From an unicellular cyanobacterium SU3 (GTDB lineage: Bacteria; Cyanobacteriota; Cyanobacteriia; Cyanobacteriales; Microcystaceae): 61,954 nucleotides of DNA. Under the pieces are notes generated by a model. That model saw nothing but the letters and a program-made list of their open reading frames with translations. It had not been told where the DNA came from and did no database searches. The position numbers and the translations under genes are program-made. The stretch spans positions 1 to 61,954 of the forward strand of contig NETF01000154.1 of NCBI GenBank assembly GCA_002172675.1. Direction: 5' to 3'. Below, one piece after another: positions 16,251 to 37,345 of the stretch. The first letter of the stretch is position 1; each line of letters opens with the position of its first letter.

Positions 16251-16257
16251 AAGGCGA

Positions 16258-16311
16258 TCCCCCCGACACCCTACAGACGAACGGCCCCGACAACCTACAC
16301 CCGACACCCCA
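16258..16311. repeat. Short tandem repeats between PPIase and exporter
   Basis: CCCGACACC/CCCGACAACC units fill the whole gap between the two genes and end at the exporter ATG. Reading the exporter frame further upstream would translate this repeat and overlap the PPIase gene, which argues for the start at 16312. Confidence 0.5.
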
Positions 16312-19284: not shown

Positions 19285-19382
19285 ATCCCCCCTACCCCCT
19301 TTTCAAAGGGGGAAATAGCAGAAGGCAGGAGTCAATATATCCTCCCTACCCCCGACACCCTAACCCCTACAACCTACCCCCT
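19285..19382. repeat. Palindromic and short tandem repeats
   Basis: Starts with CCCCCTACCCCCTTTTC/AAAGGGGG, a palindromic cyanobacterial repeat that may also stop transcription weakly, followed by CCCGACACCC-type units up to the HlyD Shine-Dalgarno. Confidence 0.45.
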
Positions 19383-19403
19383 CATTAACCATAGGAGTCA
19401 ATC

Positions 19404-21032
19404 ATGAATAACTTAATTCGCGCTAAAAAACCCACATTTTCCTCTACAGAATCAACTCAAATTACTCTTGCTTTTCGTCAAACCAGTTTTTGGTCAAAAG
19501 CTTTATTATGGACAGTAATAGGCGTTAGTAGCTTTGGTTTAGGTTGGGCTTGTATTGCTCAAATTGAACAAACCGTTCCAGTTACGGGACAGTTGAAACC
19601 GGAAGGCAAAGTAAAAGAAGTACAAACCCCTGTAGGTGGTGTTATTACAGAAGTTCATGTTGAAGATGGCGAAAAAGTTCAACCAGGGGATTTATTGGTT
19701 ACTTTTGATACGACTAATACGGTTGCCCGTTTGAAGTCTCTTAACGAAGAAAAACAATCCCTAGGGCAAGAGAATCAATATTATCAAACCTTGATGCAAA
19801 ATACTGCTACAACCCTTTTACAATTACCCCCTAACCTTCCCGTAGAAATTGCTCAATTAGGTCGAGAAAGAACAGAATTATTGACAGAAAATCAAGTATT
19901 TCAAGCTAAATTATCAGGAACGATACCTAATGTTAATGGGGAAAACTTAGCCCGTCTCAATGCCTTACGCGCGCAGTCTGATGCCCGTATTCAAACTGCT
20001 CGTTTAGATATGGCACAATTAGAAAAACGGCTGCAACAAAATCAAGTACAGTTAACTGATGCGAGACAACAATTAGCAACAGAAAAACAAAACTTAATTG
20101 ATATTCAACGACGGAATCAATCTGCAGTGAAAAATACCCAACAAAGTTTACAAACCGAAGAACAAATTTTGAACCGTATTGAACCTTTGAAAGAAGAAGG
20201 AGCGATCGCATTAATTCAATATGACAAACAGTTACAAGCAGTCAATGAATTACGCTCACAATTGTCTCAACGAGAAGCAGAAGATCGTTTAGATAATAAC
20301 CAACAACGTCAAACCATTCAATCAACTCAAGCTGATATTGATCGCCTGATTCAAGAACAAAAACGTCTGCAAATAGAACTGTCTCAAAGTGAGGAGAAAG
20401 TTAAAAATATTATGGCAGATGGTGAAACAAATGTCAGAGGACAAATAGCTTCTAATCATCAACGGTTAGCGGAAATTGATAGTCAATTAACCAAGCGTAT
20501 TGTAGAAAATAAAAAGCGTCTCTCTCAAATTGAAAATGAAATTTCTCAAACCAAACTGAATCTAACTTACCAAAACTTAAAAGCTGATAATAGTGGAATC
20601 GTCTTCGATCTCCAAGCTTCTCAACCTGGTTTTGTTGCTAAAGCGAGTCAACCTTTATTAAAAATTGTTCCTCAAGATTTCTTAGTAGCAGAAGTCTTTA
20701 TTACCAATCAAGATATTGGTTTTGTTAAAGAAGGAATGCCAGTGGATGTAAGGATTGATAGCTTTAGCTTTAGTGAATTTGGAGACATTCGAGGTGAAAT
20801 TATTTCTATTGGAAAAGATGCCTTAGAACCTGATGAAATTTATCCCTTTCATCGTTTCCCTGCTTTGGTTCGTTTAGAAACTCAAAATTTATCGGTCAAC
20901 GGTAGAGAATTATCCTTACAATCAGGGATGTCTATTAATGCTAATGTTATTGTCAATGAAAAACGACGAGTTATTAGTTTAGTGGCTGAATCTTTAGTGA
21001 AGAAACTTGATGCTTTAAAGTCCGTTGATTAA
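19404..21032 (+). CDS. HlyD-family adaptor of the type I exporter
   Basis: 542 residues. An N-terminal cytoplasmic part, one anchor helix (about 33-53, ALLWTVIGVSSFGLGWACIA), a lipoyl half (VEDGEKVQPGDLLVTFDTTN), a very long coiled-coil hairpin rich in Gln, Glu and Lys (about 110-400), the second lipoyl half and a C-terminal beta domain (PVDVRIDSF, GEIISIGKDA). AGGAG precedes the ATG. It follows the ABC gene by 119 bases and should link it to a TolC-type channel encoded elsewhere. Confidence 0.93.
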   Translation: MNNLIRAKKPTFSSTESTQITLAFRQTSFWSKALLWTVIGVSSFGLGWACIAQIEQTVPVTGQLKPEGKVKEVQTPVGGVITEVHVEDGEKVQPGDLLVTFDTTNTVARLKSLNEEKQSLGQENQYYQTLMQNTATTLLQLPPNLPVEIAQLGRERTELLTENQVFQAKLSGTIPNVNGENLARLNALRAQSDARIQTARLDMAQLEKRLQQNQVQLTDARQQLATEKQNLIDIQRRNQSAVKNTQQSLQTEEQILNRIEPLKEEGAIALIQYDKQLQAVNELRSQLSQREAEDRLDNNQQRQTIQSTQADIDRLIQEQKRLQIELSQSEEKVKNIMADGETNVRGQIASNHQRLAEIDSQLTKRIVENKKRLSQIENEISQTKLNLTYQNLKADNSGIVFDLQASQPGFVAKASQPLLKIVPQDFLVAEVFITNQDIGFVKEGMPVDVRIDSFSFSEFGDIRGEIISIGKDALEPDEIYPFHRFPALVRLETQNLSVNGRELSLQSGMSINANVIVNEKRRVISLVAESLVKKLDALKSVD

Positions 21033-22058: not shown

Positions 22059-23879
22059 ATGAATATTGAGCCAGTCTATACCTCAGTCGGTGTTCTTTTT
22101 AAACGCCAATCTAAATTTTTTATCCCTAAATATCAAAGAGCTTACGCTTGGAACTCGGAATCTGTATCAGATTTTATAAGTGATTTAAACATTTGTTTTG
22201 ACAAAAGAAAGCATGGATCACAAATCAATCATTTTTTTGGTGGAGTTCTTAGTGTTAAACGTAATGTTATTGGTGCTTTTGATCAACACGAATATGAAAT
22301 TATTGATGGACAACAAAGAATTGCAACATTTACTTTATTAGTCGCTGGTTTAATTAAATCATACAAAGATTTAGAATTAGAGGCTCAAAAATCATCAGAA
22401 GACAATAATAATATATCAATTATAAAAAAACGATATCAAGATTTATTAAATAGATTTATTGAATTTGAACAAGAAATTCAAAGAGAAGTTACTCCTGTTG
22501 AAGTTTTAAAACTTTCAAAAGCTGATCATTCTTTCTATCGTGACTTAATTCGTAATCATGAGGCTGATCCATTAAGAGATTCACATAAAAAAATGTTGTC
22601 TGCTTATGAGAAGTTAAATAAAAATTTAGAATTAATTATTAATCAATGTGAAAAAATCGAAAATAAAATTGATAATCTTGAAATAATTCAGAACATATTA
22701 GATTATGATTTTACTGTGCTACACATGATCACCGATAAAAAAGAAGATGCTTTTAGACTTTTTCAAGTCATTAATGATAGAGGAACCAATTTAACAGATG
22801 GAGATTTGTTGAGAGCTAAAACTTTAGAAATGTTAGAACAATTTCCAGGAGAGCAGATAATTGTCGAAGAATTATGGGATAAGATTCTGGCCGATTCTCC
22901 TTCTGAGACAAATGATTACTTAAATTGGATTTATGATTCTTACCAAGGTACTAGACCAAAACCCAATGCCGTTTTTGATATGTTTCTTGATAAATTTTTC
23001 CCAGAACATAAAAATAATAATTTAACCGAGCAAGATGCACAAAAAATTAGAAAAACAATGCAAAATATTCATCAATATATAATTAAGTGTCGAAAATTAG
23101 TTCAAGGACAATGGTTATATGAAGACAAGCAACCTATAACTGCTTGGGATAGAACTCGTTTAAATATTATTGTAGTTGAACTTGGTCATAGTTTATCAAT
23201 TCCATTGTTCCTTGCAGCATCTGAACTAGATCATAAACAGTTTTCCGAAATAGTTCAAATGGTAGAAAGAACATTTTTTCGATATAAATTAATTTGTAAT
23301 GAACATATAACTGCTTTAAAAAATATTTACTCTAAAGAAGCTCTTGAAATTCGGAAAGATTATCAATCGTATCATCCTAACAGTCTGAGAGAAAAACTCC
23401 ATAAGCTAATTCAATCAAAAGTGCCAAATCAAACATTTAAAAACGCCTTAAAAATGCTTAAATATCAAGAATCTGGTACAAGTAATAAACCTCTTAAGTA
23501 TTTTTTGATGTCCATTGAATATTATTATCAATGGTATAAAGAAGGAGCTAATGAACAACCTTTATGTCATGATAAAAGTAGAGTCTATGACTTTGCTGGT
23601 ACATCCATTGAACACATCTATCCTCGGAATCCTAATGATAATGATAAAGACGAGACTATTGAACCTCTAAAAAATTCACTGGGAAATCTGACAATTATGG
23701 ATCCTCAACAAAATAGACTAGGTTATAATGATCCATTTTTGCAGAAAAAGCACCTTTATGAAAAGTCTTCTGTTATTTTAAATAAAGAAATAAGCACAAA
23801 AGAAAATTGGACAACTTCGGATATAGAACATAACCAGGAATTTTTGATAGATGCTGCTCTTAAAATATTCATTCCATAA
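22059..23879 (+). CDS. DUF262/DUF1524 (GmrSD-like) protein
   Basis: 606 residues. The N-terminal DUF262 domain has FFIPKYQRAYAW and, later, EIIDGQQRIATFTLL, the nucleotide-binding motifs of the GmrS/ParB-like fold. The C-terminal DUF1524 domain is an HNH-type nuclease unit (SIEHIYPRNP, then NSLGNLTIMDPQQNRL and a final Phe-Lys region). Fused DUF262-DUF1524 proteins include GmrSD, which cuts modified phage DNA, so a type IV restriction or other anti-phage role is likely. It sits between broken toxin-antitoxin genes, as defence genes often do. AGGAT precedes the ATG. AT content is high. Whether it targets modified DNA is not visible. Confidence 0.8.
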   Translation: MNIEPVYTSVGVLFKRQSKFFIPKYQRAYAWNSESVSDFISDLNICFDKRKHGSQINHFFGGVLSVKRNVIGAFDQHEYEIIDGQQRIATFTLLVAGLIKSYKDLELEAQKSSEDNNNISIIKKRYQDLLNRFIEFEQEIQREVTPVEVLKLSKADHSFYRDLIRNHEADPLRDSHKKMLSAYEKLNKNLELIINQCEKIENKIDNLEIIQNILDYDFTVLHMITDKKEDAFRLFQVINDRGTNLTDGDLLRAKTLEMLEQFPGEQIIVEELWDKILADSPSETNDYLNWIYDSYQGTRPKPNAVFDMFLDKFFPEHKNNNLTEQDAQKIRKTMQNIHQYIIKCRKLVQGQWLYEDKQPITAWDRTRLNIIVVELGHSLSIPLFLAASELDHKQFSEIVQMVERTFFRYKLICNEHITALKNIYSKEALEIRKDYQSYHPNSLREKLHKLIQSKVPNQTFKNALKMLKYQESGTSNKPLKYFLMSIEYYYQWYKEGANEQPLCHDKSRVYDFAGTSIEHIYPRNPNDNDKDETIEPLKNSLGNLTIMDPQQNRLGYNDPFLQKKHLYEKSSVILNKEISTKENWTTSDIEHNQEFLIDAALKIFIP

Positions 23880-24422: not shown

Positions 24423-26189
24423 ATGTTTGCTAAAATTCCTGAAACAAAAATGCACTGGATACGTTGGGGATTAGCTATTGGTTGGCTATTGCTCATTTTT
24501 TCCATGTTTTACGACCCGATTTCAGCTTTTTTAACGGAACCTTATCAATTTTTTGGGCCGAAAATGGCGCATAGTTGTTATGAGTTTCAAGGGAAATGTC
24601 TGCCTTTAAGTCCCTATCCCTTGGGGCCTAGAATTTTTTGGGGTATGGTGGTTCCCACAGCTATTATTATTTTAGTTCTCTTTGGTCATGAAGCATGGCG
24701 ACGCATTTGTCCGTTATCCTTTTTTTCTCAGCTTCCTCGCGCGTTAGGATGGCAGCGCAAACGGTTGGTTAAGGAGAATTCTTGGTTATCTCGCAACCAT
24801 CTATACTTGCAATGGGGTTTATTATTTTTAGGGTTAAATGTGCGTTTACTGTTGGTTAATTCCGATCGCCTGTTATTGGGAATTTTTCTGAGTTTTACTA
24901 TCTTATCAGCCATTACGGTTGGCTTTTTATACGGGGGGAAAAGTTGGTGTCATTATTTTTGTCCTATGGCCCCGGTACAAATGATTTATAGTGAACCCAG
25001 TGGTATTCTAACCTCTGAAGCGCATACTGCACCTCCGATGTCTATTACTCAGTCTATGTGTCGTAAGGTGGATAGTCAGGGACAGAAAAAAAGTGCTTGT
25101 GTTGCTTGTCAGTCTCCTTGTATGGATATTGATGCAGAAAATGGCTATTGGAGTAAAATTAATCAAAGCGATCGCAAGTTACTCTATTACGGTTATCTGG
25201 GTTTAGCCATTGGGTTTTATGTTTATTTTGGTCTCTATTCGGGTAACTGGCAGTTTTTATCTGGAGGAGTTTGGAACGAAACCAATCAACTTGCAACCTT
25301 ATTTTCTCCAGGTTTTTATATTTCAGGTCATGCCATTCCTATTCCTAAAATTGTAGCCGTTCCTTTAACGTTACTGTTCTTTTCAGGAGCAACTTATGTC
25401 ATAGGAATGCGGTTACAAAAAGCTTATAAACGTTACAATAAGCGATTCAAAAGACCGTTATCTTTAGAACAAGTACATCATCGTTTATTTACCCTTTTTA
25501 CCTTTGTTTCCTTTAATTGTTTGTTCTTTTTAGGAGTGCGTCCCACGTTAGGATGGATACCCTTTAACGGACAAAATATAATAACTTGGGCAGCTATTTT
25601 AATGAGTGGGTTATGGTTAGTTAAAGCGTGGCAACGTCGCTATGAACAATATACGAAAGAACGGGATAGTCATTTATTGCGTCGTCAACTGGGTAAACTA
25701 TCTATAGATTGTTCAGCGTTTCTCGAAGGTCGAAGTTTAGAGGATTTAAACGCCGATGAATTGTATGCTTTAGCTAAAGTGTTGCCTGGTTTTACCCATC
25801 AATCTCGTTTACAAGTCTATACAGGAACCCTCAAAGAAGCGATCGCTCAACGTCGTGTTAGTTATCAAAGTAGTCTTAAAGTATTCCAAAGTTTACGGCA
25901 AGAATTAGGTATTAATGAAAATGAACATTGGAGAAGTTTAGACCAATTGTGTCAAGATTATCCTGAATTATTTGTACCCCATTTAGGACAAATTTCCGAT
26001 GCAGAATTAACCATTCGTCGTCCCATTAAAGAGACTTTTTCTAATCCTGAGTTAACTATGCAACGACCTTTAGATGTTAAAAATGGTCAAAGTTTATCTG
26101 TTTTAGGAAAAGGGAATAGGAAACAGTTGCCGAAAGGTTCAAGAGATACAGAGAAAACGATTCAAAGACCGTTTTCAAAGAAAAAATAA
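24423..26189 (+). CDS. Polyferredoxin-like (NapH/CcoG-type) membrane protein with phosphomotif tail
   Basis: 588 residues. Five or six membrane helices (first about 13-35) carry cysteine motifs: CHYFCPMAPVQ on a loop, then a cysteine after QSM and CVACQSPCMDID, a 4Fe-4S-like set in NapH/NosR/CcoG relatives. The C-terminal 190 residues are soluble. Its last 65 hold three copies of E-x-T-[IM]-x-R-P: ELTIRRP, ELTMQRP and EKTIQRP, with Thr at 530, 545 and 579. Repeated threonines of one context in a flexible tail suggest kinase sites read by an FHA domain; an FHA protein and a Ser/Thr kinase are the next large genes on this strand. Likely role: passing electrons across or along the membrane. The redox partner is unproven. 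Confidence 0.75.
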   Translation: MFAKIPETKMHWIRWGLAIGWLLLIFSMFYDPISAFLTEPYQFFGPKMAHSCYEFQGKCLPLSPYPLGPRIFWGMVVPTAIIILVLFGHEAWRRICPLSFFSQLPRALGWQRKRLVKENSWLSRNHLYLQWGLLFLGLNVRLLLVNSDRLLLGIFLSFTILSAITVGFLYGGKSWCHYFCPMAPVQMIYSEPSGILTSEAHTAPPMSITQSMCRKVDSQGQKKSACVACQSPCMDIDAENGYWSKINQSDRKLLYYGYLGLAIGFYVYFGLYSGNWQFLSGGVWNETNQLATLFSPGFYISGHAIPIPKIVAVPLTLLFFSGATYVIGMRLQKAYKRYNKRFKRPLSLEQVHHRLFTLFTFVSFNCLFFLGVRPTLGWIPFNGQNIITWAAILMSGLWLVKAWQRRYEQYTKERDSHLLRRQLGKLSIDCSAFLEGRSLEDLNADELYALAKVLPGFTHQSRLQVYTGTLKEAIAQRRVSYQSSLKVFQSLRQELGINENEHWRSLDQLCQDYPELFVPHLGQISDAELTIRRPIKETFSNPELTMQRPLDVKNGQSLSVLGKGNRKQLPKGSRDTEKTIQRPFSKKK

Positions 26190-26215
26190 CGGTTAGATGT
26201 TTGAAATTATTGTAA

Positions 26216-26232
26216 GGTGGGCATTGCCCACC
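26216..26232. repeat. GGTGGGCATTGCCCACC palindrome
   Basis: A widespread cyanobacterial palindrome just after the stop of the polyferredoxin gene. An extended copy is at 55334-55358 and partial copies lie near 14668 and 49551. It may end transcription here. Confidence 0.65.
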
Positions 26233-26274
26233 CTACTTCTGGATCTTAAATGGTATAACTTTTTGAGCGATCTC

Positions 26275-26341
26275 GGAGAAATCCGCTAGACTTCGTCCCT
26301 CTAGGCTTCGCCCCTCTTCGAGTCCGAGTCCGCGGTGCGCT
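26275..26341. repeat. Dispersed repeat, copy B
   Basis: 67 bases from GAGCGATCTCGGAGAAATCC to CCGAGTCCGCGGTGCGC, matching copy A at 6612-6684. The middle differs by a short insertion (CTAGGCTTCGCCCC). Both copies lie outside intact genes. Confidence 0.6.
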
Positions 26342-26506
26342 TTTTTAACTGTTGCGTCTTACGTTTCAAGCTCGTTCCAATACCAAGGGTACTGAAAGCT
26401 ACTTGATCTTTTGTTTCAAACAAAGTTTGGAATTAGCTAAAGTCCCATTAACTATTATGGCTTATAATCTAAAGTAGAAACCATCAAACTTACAAAATTC
26501 ATAAAG

Positions 26507-26818
26507 ATGATCCATCTACATCCTGAATTTTTAACTAAAAATGGCAAAAAAGAATTTGCTGTTTTACCCTACGAAGAATTTGTTAAACTTCAAAAATTAT
26601 TAAATAAATTAGAAGAAGATAGTCAAATAGATCCACTCAAAGAAATTAAAGAGATACAAAAAAAATCATTATCTGATTGGGAAACAGCTATCAATCAAAT
26701 TGAAAAATCAGATAAAATAGAACAAAAAGAAAAAATCAAAGCATTATTTGATTCGTGGCAAGAATTAGAAGATGAACAAGAACAAAAAGAAACTCTAGAA
26801 ATTATCCAATTTAATTGA
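26507..26818 (+). CDS. Orphan antitoxin-like protein
   Basis: 103 residues. The start (MIHLHPEFLTKNGKKEFAVL, then PYEEFVKLQKLLNKLEED) follows the Phd/YefM-like pattern of small antitoxins. The rest is highly charged, rich in Lys, Glu and Gln and probably helical. No toxin follows in the same direction; the nearest toxin gene is convergent and has its own antitoxin. It may be a solitary remnant or act in trans. Its last codons lie in the 87-base repeat described next. Confidence 0.55.
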   Translation: MIHLHPEFLTKNGKKEFAVLPYEEFVKLQKLLNKLEEDSQIDPLKEIKEIQKKSLSDWETAINQIEKSDKIEQKEKIKALFDSWQELEDEQEQKETLEIIQFN

Positions 26819-26899
26819 ATAAAAATTATAATTTACTTTGTTTTACACTAGCATATTTTAACCTAGATAGAGCGATCGCAGTTTTAACTATTGCGCTAC
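26813..26899. repeat. 87-base direct repeat, left copy
   Basis: About 90 percent identical to 27608-27694 by eye, running from AATTGAATAAAAATTATAAT through CTAGCATATTTTAACCTAGA to ACTATTGCGCTAC. The two copies bracket the toxin-antitoxin pair at 26904-27604 exactly. Confidence 0.75.
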
Positions 26900-26903
26900 T
26901 TTA

Positions 26904-27308
26904 TTAAAATAAAATAATAAAACCTTCTTGTTTAAAATGGTTATCATGAGTTAACACCTCATTAATTTTTAAACGTTGCATAACTGTCATAGAAATACAA
27001 TCTGTTAGGCTATATTCTTTATCTAGGCGACGACGATATAAATTAAAACCTTCAAGAAAAGACTCTCTATTTTGAGCAATGACTTTAATGTGAGGATTTT
27101 TCATAATATCATCAACAAATTGTACAGTACGTTTCCTGAGAGGAACGATGGACGACAGAAAATTTAAGACCTCAATCAAAACTTCATCTGTTGTCACAAT
27201 CTCAACATTTTTTAGAGTAGATGTAATTTCTATGACTCGTTGATGCCAATTATCTTTTTTATTGACTAAAGCTACCCAATAAAACGTATCTGCAAAAATT
27301 TGTTTCAT
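26904..27308 (-). CDS. PIN-domain toxin (VapC-like)
   Basis: 134 residues with all four acidic positions of the PIN nuclease: ADTFYW (Asp7), DEVLIEVL (Glu), SLTDCISM (Asp) and THDNHF (Asp). Expected activity is Mg2+-dependent RNA cleavage, held off by the antitoxin encoded just upstream. Its start overlaps the antitoxin stop by four bases. Of the PIN genes in this window it is the only complete one. Confidence 0.85.
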   Translation of the reverse strand: MKQIFADTFYWVALVNKKDNWHQRVIEITSTLKNVEIVTTDEVLIEVLNFLSSIVPLRKRTVQFVDDIMKNPHIKVIAQNRESFLEGFNLYRRRLDKEYSLTDCISMTVMQRLKINEVLTHDNHFKQEGFIILF

Positions 27309-27604
27309 TGACTTTTCTTGGGAGTTCCATAAAGATAATGATCATGTTCTTCTGCCGCATCAATAGGAAGACTATTAAGTTCTTCTTCTGTCAAATCATA
27401 CTTATTAACCATGTTTAAAATTGATTCTCCTGTTGTTTCCTTCCCAAGGTCATCTTGACTCAGATGAGTTTCTAAAGTCTCCTTAAGTTTATTCAAAACC
27501 TTATCTAAAGAACTATCTTGGTAATTAATGGAATCTAACTCAGGAAAATTAACTGAATATCCATCTGAGTTCTTAGCAACCACAATATTTATTTTGTCAA
27601 CCAT
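27305..27604 (-). CDS. Antitoxin of the PIN toxin
   Basis: 99 residues; the first 50 (VAKNSDGYSVNFPELDSIN, then a coil with KLKETLETHL) are like HicB-type or related antitoxin folds. The acidic C-terminus (EELNSLPIDAAEEHDHYLYG) could wrap a toxin. It overlaps the PIN gene by four bases. Neutralisation of that toxin is inferred from the arrangement. Confidence 0.7.
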   Translation of the reverse strand: MVDKINIVVAKNSDGYSVNFPELDSINYQDSSLDKVLNKLKETLETHLSQDDLGKETTGESILNMVNKYDLTEEELNSLPIDAAEEHDHYLYGTPKKSQ

Positions 27605-27607
27605 TTC

Positions 27608-27694
27608 AATTAAATAAAAATTATAATTTACTTTGTTTTACACTAGCATATTTTAACCTAGATAGAACGATCGCCTTTCTAACTATTGCGCTAC
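27608..27694. repeat. 87-base direct repeat, right copy
   Basis: Partner of 26813-26899. It lies just upstream of the antitoxin gene and so may carry its promoter. Each copy contains CTAGCATATTTTAACCTAGA and a CGATCGC site. Confidence 0.75.
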
Positions 27695-28061
27695 AGTAGC
27701 AGTCCTGAAAATGGAGCGATCGCATAGTTGATAAAGGTGTCGAATAACTTAAATTATACGACTTTTATTTAATTACCTGTTACATTTTCTTGATTAATGG
27801 GAAACCTATTAATCATGTATAAGGGTTATTCTTATGAAACAGGGATCAAAAATACTGCTGACAGGTATTATATCCTTTTTACCTTGGTCTTCTAAGATTT
27901 TCTTATACTTATAGAAGATATTTCGACCAATACCTAACTGTTTGAACATCTGGGTTACATTACAGATCGCTATTATCTCTGTGGTGAAAGCTGCATAAAT
28001 TTTCCAACTGTCACCTATGAATAAGTGAGTTACTTCATTGCCTTCGCAGGAGACGGAAACC
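27695..28061. promoter_or_regulatory. Upstream region of the FHA gene
   Basis: 367 bases with no gene that I accept. One HIP1-like site lies near 27717. An AGGAG at 28048-28052 serves the ATG at 28062. An open frame on the other strand (27809-28084) runs across this ribosome site and is treated as spurious. Confidence 0.35.
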
Positions 28062-29555
28062 ATGCTGAATTTAAAGGTGTTCAACTATACCATTGGTGAA
28101 TTCCAAGACAAAACCTTAACCCCCGATCAAGTTAAACGAGAATGGATCATTGGACGTGCGACAACTTGCGATTTTGTGTTGGCAACGCCAGAAGTCAGTC
28201 GAGTTCACGGTAGAATTGGCTATGATGAGGGACAATATTATTTTAGTGATTTAGGCAGTACGGATGGTTCCCGTGTTAATCACGAAACCGCAATGGTTAA
28301 CCAAAGATATGCACTGAAACCTGATGATATTATTCGTATTGGTGATTTTGTTTTAGCGGTTCAAGGGATGGAAAGGAACCTTGAAACCACCATTTCTAAC
28401 CATAAAATTATAGAAACAAATGTCGCAAGTTGGACGCAAGAAGACCTAACAGTTAAATGTATTCGTATCATTGAAGAAACCGAAGATGTGAAAACCTTTT
28501 CCTTTGTCGCGGAACCAGCTATATCCTTTGCGTATCAACCCGGTCAGTTTGTCACCTTAAACCTCAATATTGAAGGTAAAACCGTTAGACGCGCTTATTC
28601 TATCTCTTCAACCCCTACCCGTCCCCATCTTCTCGAAATTACCGTTAAACGGGTTCCGTCACCTCCCAATCTGCCTAATGTTCCCCCTGGTTTAGTATCT
28701 AACTGGCTGCACGATCGCCTAAAAGTTGGAGATCAGATCCAGTTATCAGGGGGGCCAATGGGAAAATTTACCTGTGCAAAGGATGCTAATCCAAAATTGT
28801 TATTAATTTCTGCTGGAAGTGGTGTAACTCCCATGATTTCTATGTCCCGTTGGATTTATGATACCGCAGGAAAACAGGATGTCATTTTTGTTTACTGTGG
28901 TCGTCGTCGTAAAGATATCATTATGGAACAAGAATTGCAATTAATGGCAGCAAGAAACCCTAATTTTCATCTAGCAATTTCTTTAACGCAACCGGAACCT
29001 GGGGAAACTTGGCTAGGATATCGGGGAAGACTCAGCGAACAGATGTTATCAACAATGGTATCTGATTTTAAAGAGCGATCAGTTTATGTTTGCGGCCCCG
29101 ATGGGTTTATGAAAGGGGTAAAAACCTTGTTAGGTAACATGGGACTTCCCCCAGAAAACTATCATGAAGAGAGTTTTGGGGTGGGTAAAAAACAAGCTAA
29201 AGTAACCTCTCCTTCTACTCCTAAAACCTCAACGGTTTCTCAACCTACTGCTTCAACTCAACCAACATCTTCTAAACCCAATGTCTCAACAAAACCAGCG
29301 ATCGCATTTATTGAGTCAGGTAAAAACGTTACTTGTGACGATCAAGAATCAATTTTAGAAGTAGCGCAACAGGAAGGGATTAATATTCGTAGTGGTTGTA
29401 TGCAGGGGGTTTGTGGCGCGTGTAAAAAGCGCAAACGCAAAGGAAACATTCGCTATGAAGGGGAACCCGATGGACTCGATCAACAGGAACAAGAAGAAGG
29501 GTTTATTTTACCTTGTATTGCCTATGCTGTGGATGAAGTAGAAATTGAAGCTTAG
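28062..29555 (+). CDS. FHA - flavin/NAD(P) reductase - 2Fe-2S fusion protein
   Basis: 497 residues from the ATG at 28062 (AGGAG nine bases before; a TTG at 28038 is the only other start). Order: FHA domain (about 20-100) with IIGRATTCDF and EVSRVHGRIG, the Arg and Ser used to bind phosphothreonine; FAD domain (about 120-230) with RRAYSISSTP; NAD(P) domain (about 235-355) with SAGSGVTPM and YVCGPDGF; a Ser/Thr/Pro linker; and a plant-type 2Fe-2S domain (about 415-497) with CMQGVCGAC and a last cysteine in LPCIAY. The reductase part resembles Hcr-like and phthalate-reductase enzymes. It is cytoplasmic. The FHA domain should dock it on a phosphorylated partner, for which the tail of the protein at 24423-26189 is a good candidate. 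Confidence 0.9.
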   Translation: MLNLKVFNYTIGEFQDKTLTPDQVKREWIIGRATTCDFVLATPEVSRVHGRIGYDEGQYYFSDLGSTDGSRVNHETAMVNQRYALKPDDIIRIGDFVLAVQGMERNLETTISNHKIIETNVASWTQEDLTVKCIRIIEETEDVKTFSFVAEPAISFAYQPGQFVTLNLNIEGKTVRRAYSISSTPTRPHLLEITVKRVPSPPNLPNVPPGLVSNWLHDRLKVGDQIQLSGGPMGKFTCAKDANPKLLLISAGSGVTPMISMSRWIYDTAGKQDVIFVYCGRRRKDIIMEQELQLMAARNPNFHLAISLTQPEPGETWLGYRGRLSEQMLSTMVSDFKERSVYVCGPDGFMKGVKTLLGNMGLPPENYHEESFGVGKKQAKVTSPSTPKTSTVSQPTASTQPTSSKPNVSTKPAIAFIESGKNVTCDDQESILEVAQQEGINIRSGCMQGVCGACKKRKRKGNIRYEGEPDGLDQQEQEEGFILPCIAYAVDEVEIEA

Positions 29556-29600
29556 ATAAAGTAACATTTTCTACTGTTAGCAAAAATAGCTAGTGAGAGT

Positions 29601-29644
29601 AGGCAAAAGGCAAGAGGCAAGAGGCAAGAGGCAAAAGGCAAAAG
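29601..29644. repeat. Heptameric short tandem repeat
   Basis: AGGCAAAAGGCAAGAGGCAA and so on, six units of the AGGCAAG type. This is the classic cyanobacterial short-tandem-repeat form and resembles the GCCTCTTGCC core in the MITE copies. Confidence 0.75.
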
Positions 29645-29668
29645 ATAACAATATTAATCAGCCTTGCC

Positions 29669-29897
29669 GAATAATTCCTCTGATTTGCAAAATAATTAAT
29701 TTATAACCCGTACTTATTGATTACCTTTGCTGAATGATTTATCACTGTTGATGAATAATTCCTCTTATTTGCTGAATGATTGATTTATAACCCTTACTTA
29801 TTGATCAGTCTTGCTAAATGATTTATCACCCTTGATGAATGATTGATTCATAACTCTGACTTATTGATCACCTTTGATGAATGATTTATCTCTGCTA
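29669..29897. repeat. 84-base tandem repeat, 2.7 copies
   Basis: Units start at 29669, 29753 and 29837, each opening GAAT[AG]ATT and carrying TTTATAACCC.TACTTATTGAT and GAATGATTTATC. The third unit is shortened. Inside each unit the phrase TGAATGATT recurs, so the array grew from a shorter element. No open frame crosses it. It lies between the FHA and kinase genes. Confidence 0.75.
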
Positions 29898-29953
29898 CAA
29901 AATTACTAAGTTACTTTCTCTTGCCGCCTAATACTATTTCTTATTAATAGCTA

Positions 29954-30164
29954 GATAGATTGCTTCGGGGTATTGAAGAGCAAAAATCAAGACTTATTGT
30001 TTATTTTACTCCTCGCAATGACCAGTGTTTAGAGTAGGTTGGGTTTCATTATTGTCACTGGTGTCAACTTAATAGTGAATTTTTATTTCTTGATTGTCAT
30101 TGCGAGGGGATGGACTACTACTATAGTTTGATTTGTTATCATTATCCCCCCGAAGCAATCTATC
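29954..30164. mobile_element. Nested palindromic element (211 bases)
   Basis: Outer arms GATAGATTGCTTCGGGG and CCCCGAAGCAATCTATC are exact complements of 17 bases; inner arms CTCCTCGCAATGAC and GTCATTGCGAGGGG also pair, with one mismatch. The 'CATTGCGAGG ... GAAGCAATCT' phrases are typical of a repeat family spread over many bacterial genomes. No protein is encoded. It probably moves with help from an outside transposase. Confidence 0.65.
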
Positions 30165-30189
30165 AAATACCAAGTTTCCTATTACTAAC

Positions 30190-30240
30190 TTACTTTTTCC
30201 CCCTACACCCCACACTTCTCCAACACCCAACACCCTGCTT
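30190..30240. repeat. Short tandem repeats before the kinase gene
   Basis: CCCCCTACACCCCACACTTC-type units ending in CAACACCCAACACCC, of the same family as the repeat inside the kinase gene at 31344-31419. They end about 30 bases before the kinase start. Confidence 0.5.
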
Positions 30241-30269
30241 TCTGACTTCATCAAAACTAGGAATTTATC

Positions 30270-32420
30270 ATGTTTCCTATTAAATCTTCTCCCTACAATT
30301 TCCATAGTCTTCCTTCTGCTCAATCTTCCCCTAGCGGTGCTTTATACATTGGAGAAGAAAACCGTTATCGCTTAGAACAACAACTAGGAGAGGGAGGAAT
30401 GGGTCATGTTTTTTTAGCAACAGATAAACGTTTAAATAAACCAGTTGCGCTTAAACTCCTGAGAGAATCTTTAGCTGATGATCGTTCGATGCGAATTCGT
30501 TTTGATTGGGAATTAAAGATTTGTGCTTCTCTCAAAAGTGAACATATTGTCCAAGTCAGCGATTATGGAATTACTGAGGGGGGTTATCCTTTCTATATAA
30601 TGGAATACCTCGAAGGAGAAACCCTTGCTCAACGGTTGAAATATACTCCTCGTTTATCTCCTGAAGAAACTTATTTAATTATCTCTCAAGTATGTGCAGG
30701 ATTAGAATTAGCCCATGATGGTGTTACGTTGGTGAATGAGGAAACAGGTGAAACCCAAACCATTAAAGTTGTTCATCGAGACTTAAAACCGCAAAATATC
30801 TTTCTTGTTCCCACTGCATTAGGAGACTTAGTAAAAGTCATTGACTTTGGTATTGCTAAAATTCGCAACCTTCAAGCAGAACATACCAGTATGACAAATA
30901 TGTTCTTAGGAACCTGTCATTATGCAGCACCCGAACAGTTAGAAGGGTTAAAAAACTTAGATGCACGGGCAGATATTTATAGTTTAGGATTAATGTTGTA
31001 TGAAATGTTAACAGGGGTTGATCCCTTTGGCTTTAACTTTCGGGAAAAGAGAGTTAGTGTAGAATCTTGGCTATTTGCTCATGCGTCTAAACCCCCTCAT
31101 CCGTTGCGATCGCAACCTAACTGTGAGCATTTATCACCCAACCTTGAAGCAGTAGTAATGCGCTGTTTACAAAAGTCTCCTGATGATAGATTCAATTCTG
31201 TTCAAGAATTAAGTCAAGCATTACATTTAGCTGTTTTTTCCAACTCTTCAGTTCTCCCAACATCACCCCAACGCTACGACTCCAGACAATTCTCTGACAC
31301 TTTTAATAATTCAGATCAATTAACCGTTTCTAACACACAAGATTCACTCCCTGCTCCCTGCTCCCTGCTCCCCACTTCCCCATCTTCCCACACTTCCCCT
31401 ACACCCCACTCCCCACTCCCTAAATGGGGACAGTTTGCTTTGCTCATTTTGGTTGCTTTGGGACTAGGAATCTCTAGCGCGAGGTTTTTTGGTACTCCTG
31501 TCACCCCTTCTTTAACCCAAGAGAAAGGAAGTCAGATAAATCCTGTTAGCAATGCTAAAACCCTATCCGGCCATGAAAATATCGTCTGGTCAGTTGCCGT
31601 GAGTAACGATGGTAAGATAGCAGTCAGTGGTAGTAAAGATAAAACGGTAAGGGTTTGGAATACCGAGACGCGCACTCTTTTACATACCTTGACTGGTCAT
31701 TTAGATGGTGTTCGTTCTGTTAGCATTAGTCATGATAAACAGTTTATTGCCAGTGCGAGTGCGGATGAAACCATTAAGTTGTGGAACGTGGAGACAGGGG
31801 ACTTAATTCGGACACTGACAGCGCATCAAGGTTCTTTGTGGTCAGTGGAAATTAGCCCAAATGGAGAGACGATCGCCAGTGCGAGTGCGGATAAAACTAT
31901 TAGACTGTGGAATGTGGCAACAGGGGAATTGATGCGGACATTTACTGGTCATTCTCATTGGGTATTTGCGGCCACCTTTAGTCCCGATGGCAACTATTTA
32001 GCCAGTGGTAGTAAAGATGGCACGATTAAAGTTTGGGATGTTCAAAGCGGTAAACTATTACAAACCCTATCTAATCATACCGATGCGGTTCGCTCTGTGG
32101 CCTTTTCCCCCAATGGAAACTATTTAGCTAGTGGAAGTTGGGATGGTACGGTTAAAGTTTGGGAGGTGGCGACAAAAAAAGTGTTGCATACCTTTTCTCA
32201 ACATAGCGATCGCGTTGTAACCGTTAGTTTTAGCCGTGACGGTAAAACCCTAGTGAGTGGTAGTATTGATGGTACGCTTCAGGTGTGGGACTGGCAAAAT
32301 CAAAAGCTTTTGGATACCTTAACAGATCAGAAAGACTGGGTTTTGTCTGTTGCGACTCTCCCTTCAGGAGACATTATTAGTAGTGGTCGTAATCCCGTCA
32401 TTAATATTTGGCAACCATAG
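30270..32420 (+). CDS. Ser/Thr protein kinase with periplasmic WD40 propeller
   Basis: 716 residues. Kinase domain (about 33-320): LGEGGMGHV loop, VALK lysine (62), HRDLKPQN (Asp171), DFG (192-194) and an activation loop with TSMTN before GTCHYAAPEQ. A Ser/Pro-rich linker (359-384), one membrane helix (about 388-406) and seven WD40 repeats (about 425-716) follow, so the propeller lies outside and the kinase inside. This is a one-component sensor kinase of the PknB-like bacterial class. The linker is encoded by short tandem repeats. Neighbours: an FHA redox protein upstream and an exported CHAT protease downstream, the latter starting 33 bases after the stop. The likely substrates are in this cluster. 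Confidence 0.92.
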   Translation: MFPIKSSPYNFHSLPSAQSSPSGALYIGEENRYRLEQQLGEGGMGHVFLATDKRLNKPVALKLLRESLADDRSMRIRFDWELKICASLKSEHIVQVSDYGITEGGYPFYIMEYLEGETLAQRLKYTPRLSPEETYLIISQVCAGLELAHDGVTLVNEETGETQTIKVVHRDLKPQNIFLVPTALGDLVKVIDFGIAKIRNLQAEHTSMTNMFLGTCHYAAPEQLEGLKNLDARADIYSLGLMLYEMLTGVDPFGFNFREKRVSVESWLFAHASKPPHPLRSQPNCEHLSPNLEAVVMRCLQKSPDDRFNSVQELSQALHLAVFSNSSVLPTSPQRYDSRQFSDTFNNSDQLTVSNTQDSLPAPCSLLPTSPSSHTSPTPHSPLPKWGQFALLILVALGLGISSARFFGTPVTPSLTQEKGSQINPVSNAKTLSGHENIVWSVAVSNDGKIAVSGSKDKTVRVWNTETRTLLHTLTGHLDGVRSVSISHDKQFIASASADETIKLWNVETGDLIRTLTAHQGSLWSVEISPNGETIASASADKTIRLWNVATGELMRTFTGHSHWVFAATFSPDGNYLASGSKDGTIKVWDVQSGKLLQTLSNHTDAVRSVAFSPNGNYLASGSWDGTVKVWEVATKKVLHTFSQHSDRVVTVSFSRDGKTLVSGSIDGTLQVWDWQNQKLLDTLTDQKDWVLSVATLPSGDIISSGRNPVINIWQP
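31344..31419. repeat. Short tandem repeats inside the kinase gene
   Basis: CTCCCTGCTCCCTGCTCCC, then CCCCACTTCCCCATCTTCCC-type units, the same family as in intergenic regions here. Kept in frame, they code for the Pro/Ser/His linker before the membrane helix. Confidence 0.7.
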
Positions 32421-32452
32421 CCATTGTGCAATATTTAATCTTATATGTAACG

Positions 32453-33856
32453 ATGAAAAAACTGATATCATTAATGACTTTTTCTACAGCTATAACCTTA
32501 TTCTTAGTAAGTTTTATTCATTTTCCAGGGTTAGTGGCCGAGCAATCTGATAGGCAACAAAATCAAGAACAGTTACCCCAACCCCCTGATACCGGAACCC
32601 CTGAAGGGGAGTCTATTCCAGGCGGAACTCGCAACCCTGATGGAGTGCAAAGTTATTGGTCTGAGCAAGTCTTTAACCTGGAAAATCAATGGGAAGGTAT
32701 TTATGAAAAACACTTTGATAATAACTTTTCTAGTTTATCTTTAACTCCTGAAAACATTGCTGATAAATTAACTGAGTTGAGTGAAAAAACAGGTAAGCGA
32801 TCGGCGGTTGTGTGGATGACTTCGACTCCTGAGTATTTAGCCTTGTATATTATTACGCCAGGAAAACAACCGATGGGGATCAGAGTTCGTGAAGGTAATC
32901 GAGAAGCGTTATTTCAAATCATTAAACAATTTCATCAACAAATACAATCCCCTCAGTCTTCTGATTATCTGAAAACAGCACAGGATCTTTATAAATTGAT
33001 GATTCTACCGGTAGAATATCATTTACGCAAAGAAAATATTGATACTTTAATTTTGTGTGTTGGCCCTAAATTACGATCTTTTCCCTTTGCTGCATTACAC
33101 GATGGTGAAAACTTTTTAATTGAGAATTATGCAATTACCCGAATTCCTGGTTTTAACTTAACGAACTGGGACTATAACAAGTTAGACGATGCTCAAATGT
33201 TAGCTATGGGTGCTTCTGAATTTGCTAATGATACACCTTTACCCGGTGTCGCAGCAGAATTATCCAACATTATTCCCCAAATATGGCAAGGGATAACCCT
33301 ATTAAATGAAGAGTTTACTGTTAGTAATTTAAGAAAACAACGACAAACTTATCCTTATTCTATTGTTCATTTAGCCACCCACGCTCAATTTAATCCTGGC
33401 AATCCAAGTAATTCTTATATTCAATTTTCTGATACTCGACTCAATCTTAAACAAATGAAAGAAATTAATTGGAATGAACCTCCCGTTGATTTATTGGTTC
33501 TCAGTGCTTGTAATACTGCTTTAGGAGATATTAATGCAGAACTAGGATTTGTGGGTTTGCCTATTCAATCAGGGGTTAATTCAGCAGTAGGGAGTTTATG
33601 GCGAGCAAGTGATATTGGTACAGTCGGAATGATGAGTGAATTTTACTGGCAACTTAAGGAAAATTCCTGGAAAGCAGAAGCTCTCAGACAAGCCCAAATT
33701 GCCATGATTCAAAAACGAATTCGTTGGCAACAAGGACAGTTAGAAACCCCTAGAGAAGATATTTCTGTGACTTCGGAGTTGATGAAGTTAGAAGGCTTAG
33801 ATTTATCTCACCCTTACTATTGGAGCGGATTTTCTCTTGTAGGAAATCCATTTTAA
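32453..33856 (+). CDS. Exported CHAT-domain protease-like protein
   Basis: 467 residues from the ATG at 32453; an upstream in-frame TTG would overlap the kinase gene. A hydrophobic N-terminus (about 8-28, TFSTAITLFLVSFIHFPGLVA) is a signal peptide or anchor, followed by a Pro/Gly-rich spacer and a CHAT domain (about 185-467). The caspase-like dyad is complete: VHLATHAQF (His310) and VLSACNTALGD (Cys353). Most CHAT proteins are cytoplasmic and have TPR repeats; this one lacks TPRs and appears to be outside the membrane, on the same side as the kinase propeller. A proteolytic partner of that propeller is a reasonable guess. Confidence 0.85.
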   Translation: MKKLISLMTFSTAITLFLVSFIHFPGLVAEQSDRQQNQEQLPQPPDTGTPEGESIPGGTRNPDGVQSYWSEQVFNLENQWEGIYEKHFDNNFSSLSLTPENIADKLTELSEKTGKRSAVVWMTSTPEYLALYIITPGKQPMGIRVREGNREALFQIIKQFHQQIQSPQSSDYLKTAQDLYKLMILPVEYHLRKENIDTLILCVGPKLRSFPFAALHDGENFLIENYAITRIPGFNLTNWDYNKLDDAQMLAMGASEFANDTPLPGVAAELSNIIPQIWQGITLLNEEFTVSNLRKQRQTYPYSIVHLATHAQFNPGNPSNSYIQFSDTRLNLKQMKEINWNEPPVDLLVLSACNTALGDINAELGFVGLPIQSGVNSAVGSLWRASDIGTVGMMSEFYWQLKENSWKAEALRQAQIAMIQKRIRWQQGQLETPREDISVTSELMKLEGLDLSHPYYWSGFSLVGNPF

Positions 33857-35702: not shown

Positions 35703-35922
35703 GAGCTTTTTTTAACGTGAGTTCGACGGAAGGAAATGTATGGATAACTCACAACTATCAAAGAGTCTTAAACCTCATTTTGTCCTTGAATAAGTTATTA
35801 TTCTGAACCCCGAACCCCTAACACCAAACTCACGTTTAACTAATATTGCTTTTTCTTTTTGTCTATCCTCGGTAGATATGTAATAGATTAGAAAATATCA
35901 AACCACCAACTTATTGAGAATT

Positions 35923-37200
35923 ATGCGCCTTAGACAAAATATTGTTGCCATATTTTCTACCTTTGTTCAATTTGAGGCAGGTGAGTTTAGCTATTGGTCT
36001 AGCGATCCGAAATTGCGTCGCAGCATGGAAAAATGTTTAGTTGGGCAGTCTGTTAAAGAGCGATCGCACAACTTTTGGGGACTTTATTGGTACAAAGTCT
36101 GGCAAGTCTCTTCTCAGTCTCAACAAAAACCCCAGATAATGCAAGCGAAATCCCATCTGAGTGCCTATTTACAAGAACCTGGCTACTGGGCGGCGAAAAA
36201 GGCGACCACTGACTTTGGCCACCTTAAATATGAAGTGTCTGATTGTTTTCAAATCGCTTTATCTTCTATTGATTCGATTCTTCAAGGCTTTGATCCCCTA
36301 CAAAAAAGTAATTTTAAAAGTTATGCCACTGTTATTTTATCCAACTATATTAGAGAAATTCTTCGACAAAGACAAGAAATTGATATTTGTAGTCCTTGGG
36401 CTTTGTTACGTAAATTGAGTCAAAAACGGTTAGTAGAATCATTACAACAAGCTGGTTTAAACAGGGAGGTAATTGATAGTTATGTGCTAGTTTGGAAGTG
36501 TTTTAAGACCAATTATGTTCCTAGTAGCGATTCGTCTCGAAGGAGAACCCGTCAATTACCCAAACCCGATGATGCTACCCTAGAAGCGATCGCCCATCAA
36601 TATAATCAAGAACGCTACGCACAGTTAGATGCACCTGGATCAACCCTTGACCCTAAAATCATAGAACAATCTCTTCTCTATTGTGTCAAAGCAGCCCGAT
36701 CTTATCTTTACCCTAGCGTCAAATCCATTAATACCCCAACCCCAGGCCAAGAAAGCGGGGAATTACTGGATATTTTACCCGACTCTAAATCTGAGTCTCT
36801 ATTAGGAGATTTAATTACCGAAGAAGAAGAACAGCAACGTTTATCTCAACAAACCCAAATTAATGAGATATTGACAGAAATTTTGACGCAAATCAAACCA
36901 GACTTGCAACAAATTCTCGATCTTTATTATGGTCAAGGATTAACACAAAAAGAAATTGCTCAACAGTTAGCAACCAAACAATATACCGTTTCACGGCGTT
37001 TAACCAAAGCAAAACAAACCCTGTTGCTGAAATTAGGTCAATGGAGTCAACAAACCCTGCATATTTCCTTAACATCCGACATACTCAATAGTATGAGTGT
37101 CGTTTTAGAGGAATGGCTGACTCATCATTATCGTCCCTTCGGGACAAGTAGTCAGGAGCGGTCAGACCCCGCGCCGCCGAAGGGCGCAAGGGAATGCTGA
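35923..37200 (+). CDS. Sigma-70 family factor of the CHAT cluster
   Basis: 425 residues from the ATG at 35923 (a TTG three codons earlier is possible). A region-2-like helical part lies near 100-175 (NFKSYATVILSNYIREILRQ) and a clear region 4 near 335-375 (LTQKEIAQQLATKQYTVSRR). The long insertion between them, which includes SRRRTRQLPKPDDAT, is unusual for an ECF factor. The last 25 residues (from HHYRPFGTSSQERSD) are encoded by a palindromic repeat, so the original end is lost or extended. It opens a same-strand row with DUF1822 (145 bases on) and CHAT/CHASE2. It likely directs a small regulon under control of those two. Confidence 0.8.
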   Translation: MRLRQNIVAIFSTFVQFEAGEFSYWSSDPKLRRSMEKCLVGQSVKERSHNFWGLYWYKVWQVSSQSQQKPQIMQAKSHLSAYLQEPGYWAAKKATTDFGHLKYEVSDCFQIALSSIDSILQGFDPLQKSNFKSYATVILSNYIREILRQRQEIDICSPWALLRKLSQKRLVESLQQAGLNREVIDSYVLVWKCFKTNYVPSSDSSRRRTRQLPKPDDATLEAIAHQYNQERYAQLDAPGSTLDPKIIEQSLLYCVKAARSYLYPSVKSINTPTPGQESGELLDILPDSKSESLLGDLITEEEEQQRLSQQTQINEILTEILTQIKPDLQQILDLYYGQGLTQKEIAQQLATKQYTVSRRLTKAKQTLLLKLGQWSQQTLHISLTSDILNSMSVVLEEWLTHHYRPFGTSSQERSDPAPPKGAREC

Positions 37201-37202
37201 CC
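37160..37202. repeat. GC-rich palindromic repeat overlapping the sigma gene end
   Basis: GGTCAGACCCCGCGCCG and GGGCGCAAGGGAATGCTGACC form an imperfect hairpin. A related unit lies in the MITE at 7691-7730. The sigma factor stop codon (37198-37200) is part of it. Confidence 0.65.
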
Positions 37203-37345
37203 AAGAGAGTCAGGAGTCAGGAGTCAGAATTCATATCAATAATTAAAGAATGTCTCTCCTTAAGTCTTACATTCTGACGACCGACCTCGGTGAATCGCCC
37301 TAAAACCTGTCTTCTCCTTAACCACTGTTTATCAAGGAATATCTA

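Follow-up and report, generated by a model that had tools for sequence, protein, structure and literature searches.

A candidate phosphothreonine-gated transmembrane redox module of cyanobacteria: a WD40 Ser/Thr kinase, an iron-sulphur membrane protein and an FHA-domain reductase

The window analysed here, a stretch of 61,954 nucleotides corresponding to one contig (C154) of the 5.6 Mb genome of the unicellular cyanobacterium SU3, carries on its + strand the genes of an iron-sulphur membrane protein (hereinafter the core), of a reductase with an N-terminal FHA domain and of a membrane Ser/Thr kinase, which may together represent a phospho-gated transmembrane redox module of cyanobacteria. Taking the kinase, the tail of the core, the docking of the FHA-reductase and the electron flow as one reading, we assign it a probability of roughly 0.56; phosphorylation, docking and electron flow are what we infer, and comparative genomics supports the wiring. 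According to this reading, the kinase would sense an outside cue by means of its extracytoplasmic WD40 propeller and phosphorylate the threonines of T-[VILM]-x-[RK]-(P) motifs on the cytoplasmic tail of the core, the phosphothreonines (pThr) of which would be bound by the FHA domain of the reductase. Docking may bring the 2Fe-2S domain of the reductase close to the cytoplasmic cluster ligands of the core, with electrons presumably passing from NAD(P)H via FAD and 2Fe-2S to the core and further through its C52/C59 cysteine pair to an acceptor outside, and multiple motif copies would raise the avidity of docking. The features concerned, all on the + strand, are as follows.

24423-26189, +: core, an 8-helix iron-sulphur membrane protein (polyferredoxin-like) of 588 amino acids, predicted from the open reading frame (ORF), conservation over 106 homologues and an AlphaFold model
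25989-26186, +: disordered C-terminal tail of the core, residues 523-588 (predicted local distance difference test, pLDDT, below 50)
26004-26024, +: motif 1, ELTIRRP (Thr 530), from ORF translation and shuffles
26049-26069, +: motif 2, ELTMQRP (Thr 545), from ORF translation and shuffles
26151-26171, +: motif 3, EKTIQRP (Thr 579), from ORF translation and shuffles
28062-29555, +, ORF open from TTG 28038: FHA-reductase with FHA, FAD, NAD(P)H and 2Fe-2S domains (Pfam)
28143-28343, +: FHA domain with the putative pThr-binding residues R40, S54, H57 and N81, numbered from the TTG (Pfam, alignment)
30270-32420, +: Ser/Thr kinase gene (Pfam Pkinase and WD40, hydrophobic helix)
30366-31208, +: Pkinase domain of the kinase
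about 31425-31481, +: transmembrane (TM) helix of the kinase
about 31560-32417, +: WD40 propeller of the kinase, predicted to be extracytoplasmic

The three heptapeptides listed by the first-pass annotation are present letter for letter in the 588-residue ORF, and its impression that such a repeat is unlikely by chance proved correct: none of 200,000 shuffles of the 66-residue tail reaches three T..RP sites (a dot or x standing for any residue), so that a chance origin was rejected, and three sites of the looser T..R form are reached by 724 of 200,000. For comparison with relatives, cores were sorted by length (short, below 800 amino acids, or long) and by whether the same strand carries an FHA-reductase gene at a distance of up to 4 kb, resulting in 70 short cores with reductase (window included), 20 short without, 11 long with and 5 long without it. 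Four rows with fewer than 20 tail residues were left out of the tail statistics, three of them (loci L156, L160 and L089) ending in the motif and the fourth (L163) being an apparently broken ORF. The consensus T[VILM].[RK] was defined after the tails had been read, the loci with the core and reductase pair were fetched partly because both genes matched, and the order and class searches use overlapping genomes.

With the window excluded, T[VILM].[RK] occurs in 56 of 69 short tails accompanied by a reductase gene (shuffle mean 9.3; 100 sites against 10.0), in 34 of 47 after similar tails are collapsed (shuffle mean 7.0) and, with the proline included (T[VILM].[RK]P), in 30 of 69 (shuffle mean 0.8). 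Among the 20 short tails without the reductase gene it was found in 3 (shuffle mean 2.4), and L114, counted in this class with a motif, lies at a contig end. The serine version of the same pattern has no excess, 4 sites being observed against 9.3 in shuffles. Counted with the window included, K/R at +3 and VILM at +1 are enriched around threonine 2.4-fold and 2.1-fold over background, the respective values around serine being 0.9 and 0.6. Thus the expectation set in advance, that the motif should be kept in relatives retaining the FHA gene, was borne out across the short tails and within the window's own clade, where 14 of 15 members have the motif by a density rule, 13 of these with the reductase gene seen alongside. 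The form of the motif varies by clade. Relatives whose cores share 60-70% identity with that of the window have TVVRP, TVYRP and TIVRP, and a large clade has TLAKTIAKP; L091 bears TQV[RK]R arrays, and Moorena relatives have TILRES.

Homologues of the core itself are found in 59 of 148 genomes of the order (E <= 1e-10) and in 169 of 388 genomes of the class (E <= 1e-40). Over 106 of them C96, C176, C180, C213, C229 and C233 are invariant, and C226 (105), H89 (105), C52 (103) and C59 (103) nearly so. The AlphaFold model (52 sequences; mean pLDDT 82.5) has 8 membrane-length helices and more helices up to about residue 517, beyond which the tail is disordered. Given the even number of TM helices and an N-terminus inside, the tail and the cysteines C96 to C233 would be cytoplasmic and C52/C59 would be outside; the cytoplasmic position of the tail is likewise predicted from homologues, since cytosolic modules (cyclic nucleotide (cNMP)-binding, FHA and EF-hand domains) sit there.

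As regards the designation of the core as polyferredoxin-like, the Fer4_5 model (PF12801) scores 17.7 bits on the window core, below the cut-off of 22 (E 0.0035), while 5 of 8 scanned homologues (L071, L098, L091, L074 and L070) exceed 22 bits with 30.2 as the best score, the rest reaching 22.0 (L090), 16.3 (L069) or no match at E 0.001 (L096). NCBIfam models gave no match to the window core at E 0.001, the sequence search of the PDB no solved relative (two spurious matches at E 0.7), and the fold search of solved structures with the core model nothing similar (best E 0.69). An identity as NADPH oxidase or ferric reductase was rejected, with no match of the Ferric_reduct Pfam model at E 0.001 or 0.1; among the histidines in modelled TM helices H89 alone is nearly invariant, H11 (93/106) and H353 (94/106) being variable. 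With the Fer4_5 membrane polyferredoxins of NapH, NosR and RdxA/CcoG type the core shares C-x3-C-P cysteines after its TM helices and, beyond these, a second region rich in Cys; it differs from them in staying below the Fer4_5 cut-off and in its regulatory slot at the C-terminus.

The reductase ORF (28038-29555) has the domain order FHA-FAD_binding_6-NAD_binding_1-Fer2 with every domain above its Pfam cut-off (FHA at 56.9 bits against 20.7), so that the proposed same-strand fusion of an FHA domain to a flavin reductase and a 2Fe-2S domain is confirmed. Its start is probably ATG 28062 rather than TTG 28038, since M9 is kept in 84 of 90 homologues. R40, S54, H57 and N81, presumably the residues that bind pThr, are retained in 88, 88, 89 and 88 of 90 aligned reductases, respectively; 77 of the 80 reductases located by a core have all four, and the Fer2 cysteines C454, C459, C462 and C493 are present in 90 of 90. 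FHA-reductase matches occur in 76 of 388 class genomes (E <= 1e-60), 81 loci have core and FHA-reductase within 4 kb on the same strand, and 85 of 97 reductase ORFs adjoin a core in the fetched loci, partly chosen for this arrangement; the closest FHA-reductases among named records belong to cyanobacteria such as Drouetiella, Moorena and Tolypothrix. FAD, NAD and 2Fe-2S modules are shared with NqrF, BenC and GbcB, of which NqrF, part of the membrane enzyme Na+-NQR, is the closest in sequence among solved structures (E 4.7e-27) and GbcB, glycine betaine monooxygenase reductase, the best NCBIfam match (333.8 bits against a cut-off of 500); the N-terminal FHA domain sets the window reductase apart from all three.

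The third component combines a Pkinase domain (residues 33-313, 150 bits against 31.7) with WD40 repeats (258.1 bits against 27) and a single hydrophobic helix at about residue 386. Its annotation as a Ser/Thr kinase (Hanks-type) with WD40 therefore stands, and the placement of the propeller outside the membrane is a topology prediction. Kinases near the pair were located by BLAST with two query kinases, a procedure that may miss distant ones. Of the 81 pair loci, 50 have a kinase no more than four genes away, and by core length these are 49 of the 70 short-core loci and 1 of the 11 long-core loci (Fisher p 0.0002, kinship ignored); the kinase gene stands directly upstream on the same strand in 33 loci and directly downstream in the window and L109. 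As kinase matches number 10-50 per genome (40 genomes, at most 48 candidates scored per genome), about 0.05 kinase per 10 kb is expected by chance as a rough estimate. The kinase, core and FHA-reductase genes cluster far beyond chance. Among 51 kinase ORFs in the 50 loci, 44 (in 44 loci) resemble the WD40 part of the window's or the L135 kinase; WD40 was detected by Pfam in 4 of 4 scanned short-form kinases (L111, L118, L135 and L149), and the kinases of L091, L107 and L089 have periplasmic-binding-protein domains. A fourth gene near the kinase was noticed as well, its product having a T-[VIL]-like motif in a short cytoplasmic N-terminal segment and one TM helix in six members read by eye (L113:5798-6982, L115:13514-14716, L116:5659-6849, L118:4925-6166, L119:13601-14938 and L120:4947-6125); the proteins of L113 and L116, both scanned, have WD40 repeats.

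Gene clustering and motif recurrence thus speak for the kinase-tail-reductase wiring drawn by the first-pass annotation, the picture of which turned out to be too narrow, with EF-hands or FHA and cNMP domains found in the same slot. Judged from the homologues, the tail is an exchangeable regulatory slot, a point beyond that earlier picture. In the long cores of L096 and L090 the tail position is occupied by FHA and cNMP-binding domains along with a weak HEAT match, and such an FHA domain in cis counts in favour of the docking proposed here. EF-hands take this position by Pfam (EF-hand_7, cut-off 30) in L074 (50.4 bits) and L069 (72.8 bits), the latter being a core paralogue in the window's own genome (G000:C135:9220-11664, - strand), and by pattern only in L088, L170 and L173; the Pfam scan of the window core detected no EF-hands. 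No FHA-reductase was seen alongside the EF-hand cores L069, L074, L088, L170 and L173. Control of the same redox core by Ca2+ is possible for these versions, and the short core with threonine motifs is the form most often located near a kinase gene.

A number of observations weigh against the phospho-gated wiring of kinase, tail and reductase. The T..R pattern initially proposed gives a weaker signal than the refined motif (50 of 69 short tails with reductase, shuffle mean 27.5; 84 sites against 35.8), with 11 sites against 6.4 in the 20 short tails without reductase (17 of 300 shuffles as high). The variant T.[VIL][RK] is found in 28 of 69 tails with the reductase (against 9.3), yet also in 5 of 20 without it, where its 9 sites against 2.6 are reached by 0 of 300 shuffles, four of the nine being in L107. 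This locus (G096:C105) has four NAPTEVRR repeats and a kinase alongside, with no reductase seen beside the core; the same genome holds a second core copy with reductase (L091). The reductase is present and the tails have no TxxR/K in L162, L165, L176 and L186, and long cores near the FHA-reductase have no T..[RK] arrays, L096 displaying T-x-I-G repeats. Threonine repeats of the T-x-[IVL]-G type replace T-x-x-R/K in L092:10469-12364 and L096:9486-12770, possibly reflecting a different kinase preference. Generic C-termini also show a mild excess of the motif (80 against 54 sites). Kinase genes occur near long-form pairs too, which contradicts exclusivity: a CHASE2 kinase follows the reductase in L203, and others lie further off in L209, L216 and L220. 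With 12 FHA matches and 21 kinase matches in the source genome, other partners are possible.

A later sample of 34 named cyanobacterial loci (L189-L222), some duplicating earlier ones, belongs here too. It brought seven new short cores with readable tails (L191, L193, L205, L206, L207, which is apparently broken, L208 and L218), long cores in L197, L199, L203, L209, L216 and L220, a long-tailed core running to the contig end in L202 and one too partial in L219, no core being seen in L195, L210, L212 and L221. T[VILM].[RK] is present in 4 of the 7 short cores (L191, L193, L207 and L218), several of which are near-copies, and T..[RK] could be recognized by eye in 7 of 7 tails; since L193 and L218 nearly duplicate L071 and L073, and L206 nearly duplicates L208, these loci give weak confirmation. 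A tree of 129 core rows, built without the tail, requires 7 changes of the reductase label and 9 of the motif (density rule), the motif being scored in 56 of the 93 rows that have the reductase and in 3 of the 36 that do not; the independent-pairs test of the co-evolution of motif and reductase gave 6 pairs, with which significance is unreachable. Consequently, the association is strong in counts with few independent events behind it; motif persistence within clades of differing tail length and sequence is less dependent on the number of events.

The scarcity of independent changes, together with clade-specific forms such as TQV[RK]R, TVLG and TIAKP, would suit an explanation to which we give little credence, namely that the tail motif is a Thr-containing basic patch acting irrespective of phosphorylation, e.g., in lipid contact or as a processing site, and that its association with the FHA gene reflects shared ancestry. 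Such a patch would hardly account for the prevalence of threonine over serine in the same pattern (100 sites against 4), for the preferred residues at +1 and +3 or for the motif being retained at the very C-terminal end of proteins shortened ahead of it (L156 and L160). Another possibility, unlikely in our view, is that the docking site of the FHA domain lies on the kinase after its autophosphorylation, or on a further phosphoprotein encoded in the cluster, the tail being phosphorylated for a different end such as conformational gating of the core. T[VILM].[RK] does occur in the cytoplasmic juxtamembrane linker of 5 of 10 window-clade kinases (8 sites against 1.04; 0 of 500 shuffles), 6 of 48 kinases with no clear TM helix being left out of this count, and in 1 of 21 control kinases elsewhere in the same genomes, for which 120 amino acids after the kinase domain were scored; a T-[VI]-like motif is borne by the short cytoplasmic N-terminus of the fourth protein of the window's clade (6 members by eye), and the linker of the reductase has a mild excess (13 against 5.2 sites). 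Enrichment in all adjacent kinases was considered and rejected after the split at the membrane helix, holding only in the window's clade, since elsewhere many matches lay beyond the helix. The window's own kinase has no juxtamembrane motif, another point against phospho-gating as proposed, and kinases of other clades have no excess (3 of 32), although FHA residues and tail motif persist there; furthermore, it is tails and not kinases that bear the densest arrays seen, L091 having five TxxR/K copies and L107 four.

Reductases located away from a core bear on the same question. There are 12 of them, 10 alignable, and 8 of these 10 keep the four FHA residues, which agrees with docking on the kinase and, against the phospho-gated module, implies that the FHA pocket is not kept for the core alone; this comparison is weak either way, as some of the 12 lie at contig ends or by core fragments. 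The suggestion that the pocket is lost wherever the reductase is away from a core was accordingly rejected, only 2 of 10 aligned cases, L094 and L159 (the family of the window's genome), having lost R40 and S54. It seems improbable to us that the FHA-reductase serves some other soluble partner, with the core being fed by quinol or a periplasmic donor. The catalytic half of the reductase does resemble oxygenase reductases such as GbcB, extra FHA-reductases with no core alongside exist in L105 and L106, and no solved fold resembles the core model; against this stands the adjacency of most reductase ORFs to a core, in loci partly selected for it.

The neighbourhood of the pair hints that the output of the phospho-gated module may lie at the cell surface and may be peroxide. 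Vanadium haloperoxidase-like genes stand at most four genes away from the pair in 5 of 81 loci, and among the 34 named loci 4 have such a gene near the pair (L193, L205, L218 and L219); altogether they were observed beside the pair in L071, L073, L076, L081, L099, L193, L205, L218 and L219. Those of L073, L076 and L081 are composed of DUF6851 and VCPO_2nd by Pfam, that of L076 having RTX repeats as well. PF22778 was found in 14 of 40 genomes (12 above the cut-off) with 1-4 matches each, and beside the pair in five (G042, G084, G118, G113 and G120); a PF22778 search of the window genome found none. RTX proteins recur near the pair in 19 loci (cluster c3), peptidase-ABC exporters in 9 (c8) and HlyD in 7 (c9), the window belonging to both of the latter, all as raw counts. 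The RTX gene of the window at 9403-11220 was considered as a haloperoxidase and rejected, only RTX repeats being matched.

Phagocyte NOX2, NOX5 and plant RBOH are governed by regulated assembly or Ca2+ gating, and in the phagocyte oxidase phosphorylation switches electron flow by docking. Like these enzymes, the proposed module would pair an electron carrier in the membrane with an NAD(P)H-flavin part in the cytosol and be regulated by phospho-dependent docking or, in the core homologues that have them, by EF-hands; the differences are that the window core has no Ferric_reduct match, that its conserved cysteines point to iron-sulphur clusters and that the reductase is a separate protein. Speculatively, and with a probability well below even, the family might form a new class of haem-free iron-sulphur transmembrane NAD(P)H dehydrogenases/oxidases, a functional counterpart of NOX/RBOH, in which one slot is read by pThr-FHA docking, by Ca2+ through EF-hands or by cyclic nucleotide together with FHA in cis, and electrons are delivered to the cell surface, in some lineages as peroxide for vanadium haloperoxidase, under a receptor-like WD40 kinase. 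We know of no bacterial case of transmembrane electron flow switched by docking, and to our knowledge few cyanobacterial Ser/Thr kinases have a named substrate and reader. Here a kinase, its likely substrate site and the likely reader are encoded side by side in dozens of loci, so that a whole signalling line can be tested; if the proposal is true, phosphorylation switches electron flow across a bacterial membrane by reductase docking, and the exchange of Ca2+, cNMP and pThr modules in the slot would provide a natural series of variants in which to study the swapping of regulatory modules on an enzyme.

Docking of an FHA domain on pThr produced by a kinase is a known principle, which the proposed module would apply to a membrane redox chain. 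In the type VI secretion pathway (PpkA, Fha, TssL), Thr14 of TssL is phosphorylated in a PpkA-dependent manner and Fha binds the phosphopeptide DLPpTVVEI with low affinity (dissociation constant 0.54-1.58 mM; PMC3953482). The proposed module shares with it a kinase, a membrane protein whose threonine faces the cytoplasm and an FHA reader, and the TssL site is likewise T-V-V (PMC3953482); the output there is secretion assembly, whereas here a flavin/2Fe-2S reductase bears the FHA domain and an iron-sulphur membrane protein would be the target. The residues named at pT+3 in the accessible portion of another report are S, D, M and V with no Arg among them (PMC5549992), and Arg/Lys at +3 may therefore reflect the preference of the kinase rather than that of the FHA domain. 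A survey of cyanobacterial kinases from 2007 includes WD40 kinases, the word ferredoxin being absent from its main text (PMC2176072), and no description of the module was found in open-access literature at the level of listings and abstract openings.

As to the layout of the window, the three genes share one strand, yet they form no single tight operon, being interrupted between core and reductase by a toxin gene of the opposite strand, which is flanked by 94-nucleotide direct repeats (26806-26899 and 27601-27694) of 93% identity; in L109, the closest relative of the window, the spacing from core to reductase is 119 bases. Two further features are:

26904-27308, -: PIN-domain toxin gene between core and reductase, bounded by direct repeats
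15510-21032, +: genes for PPIC rotamase, peptidase-ABC exporter and HlyD (type I secretion), an associated neighbourhood only, of gene kinds recurring near the pair elsewhere

A GmrSD-type restriction enzyme gene (22059-23879) is located directly upstream of the core, and an ORF with a CHAT domain (caspase-like; 32408-33856) starts within the end of the kinase gene. Genes for a Sigma-70 region 4 protein, DUF1822 and CHAT-CHASE2 are encountered at 35914-40858; in loci L110, L111 and L112 a relative of the sigma-like gene stands directly before the core and a DUF1822-like gene, recognized by eye, directly after the reductase.

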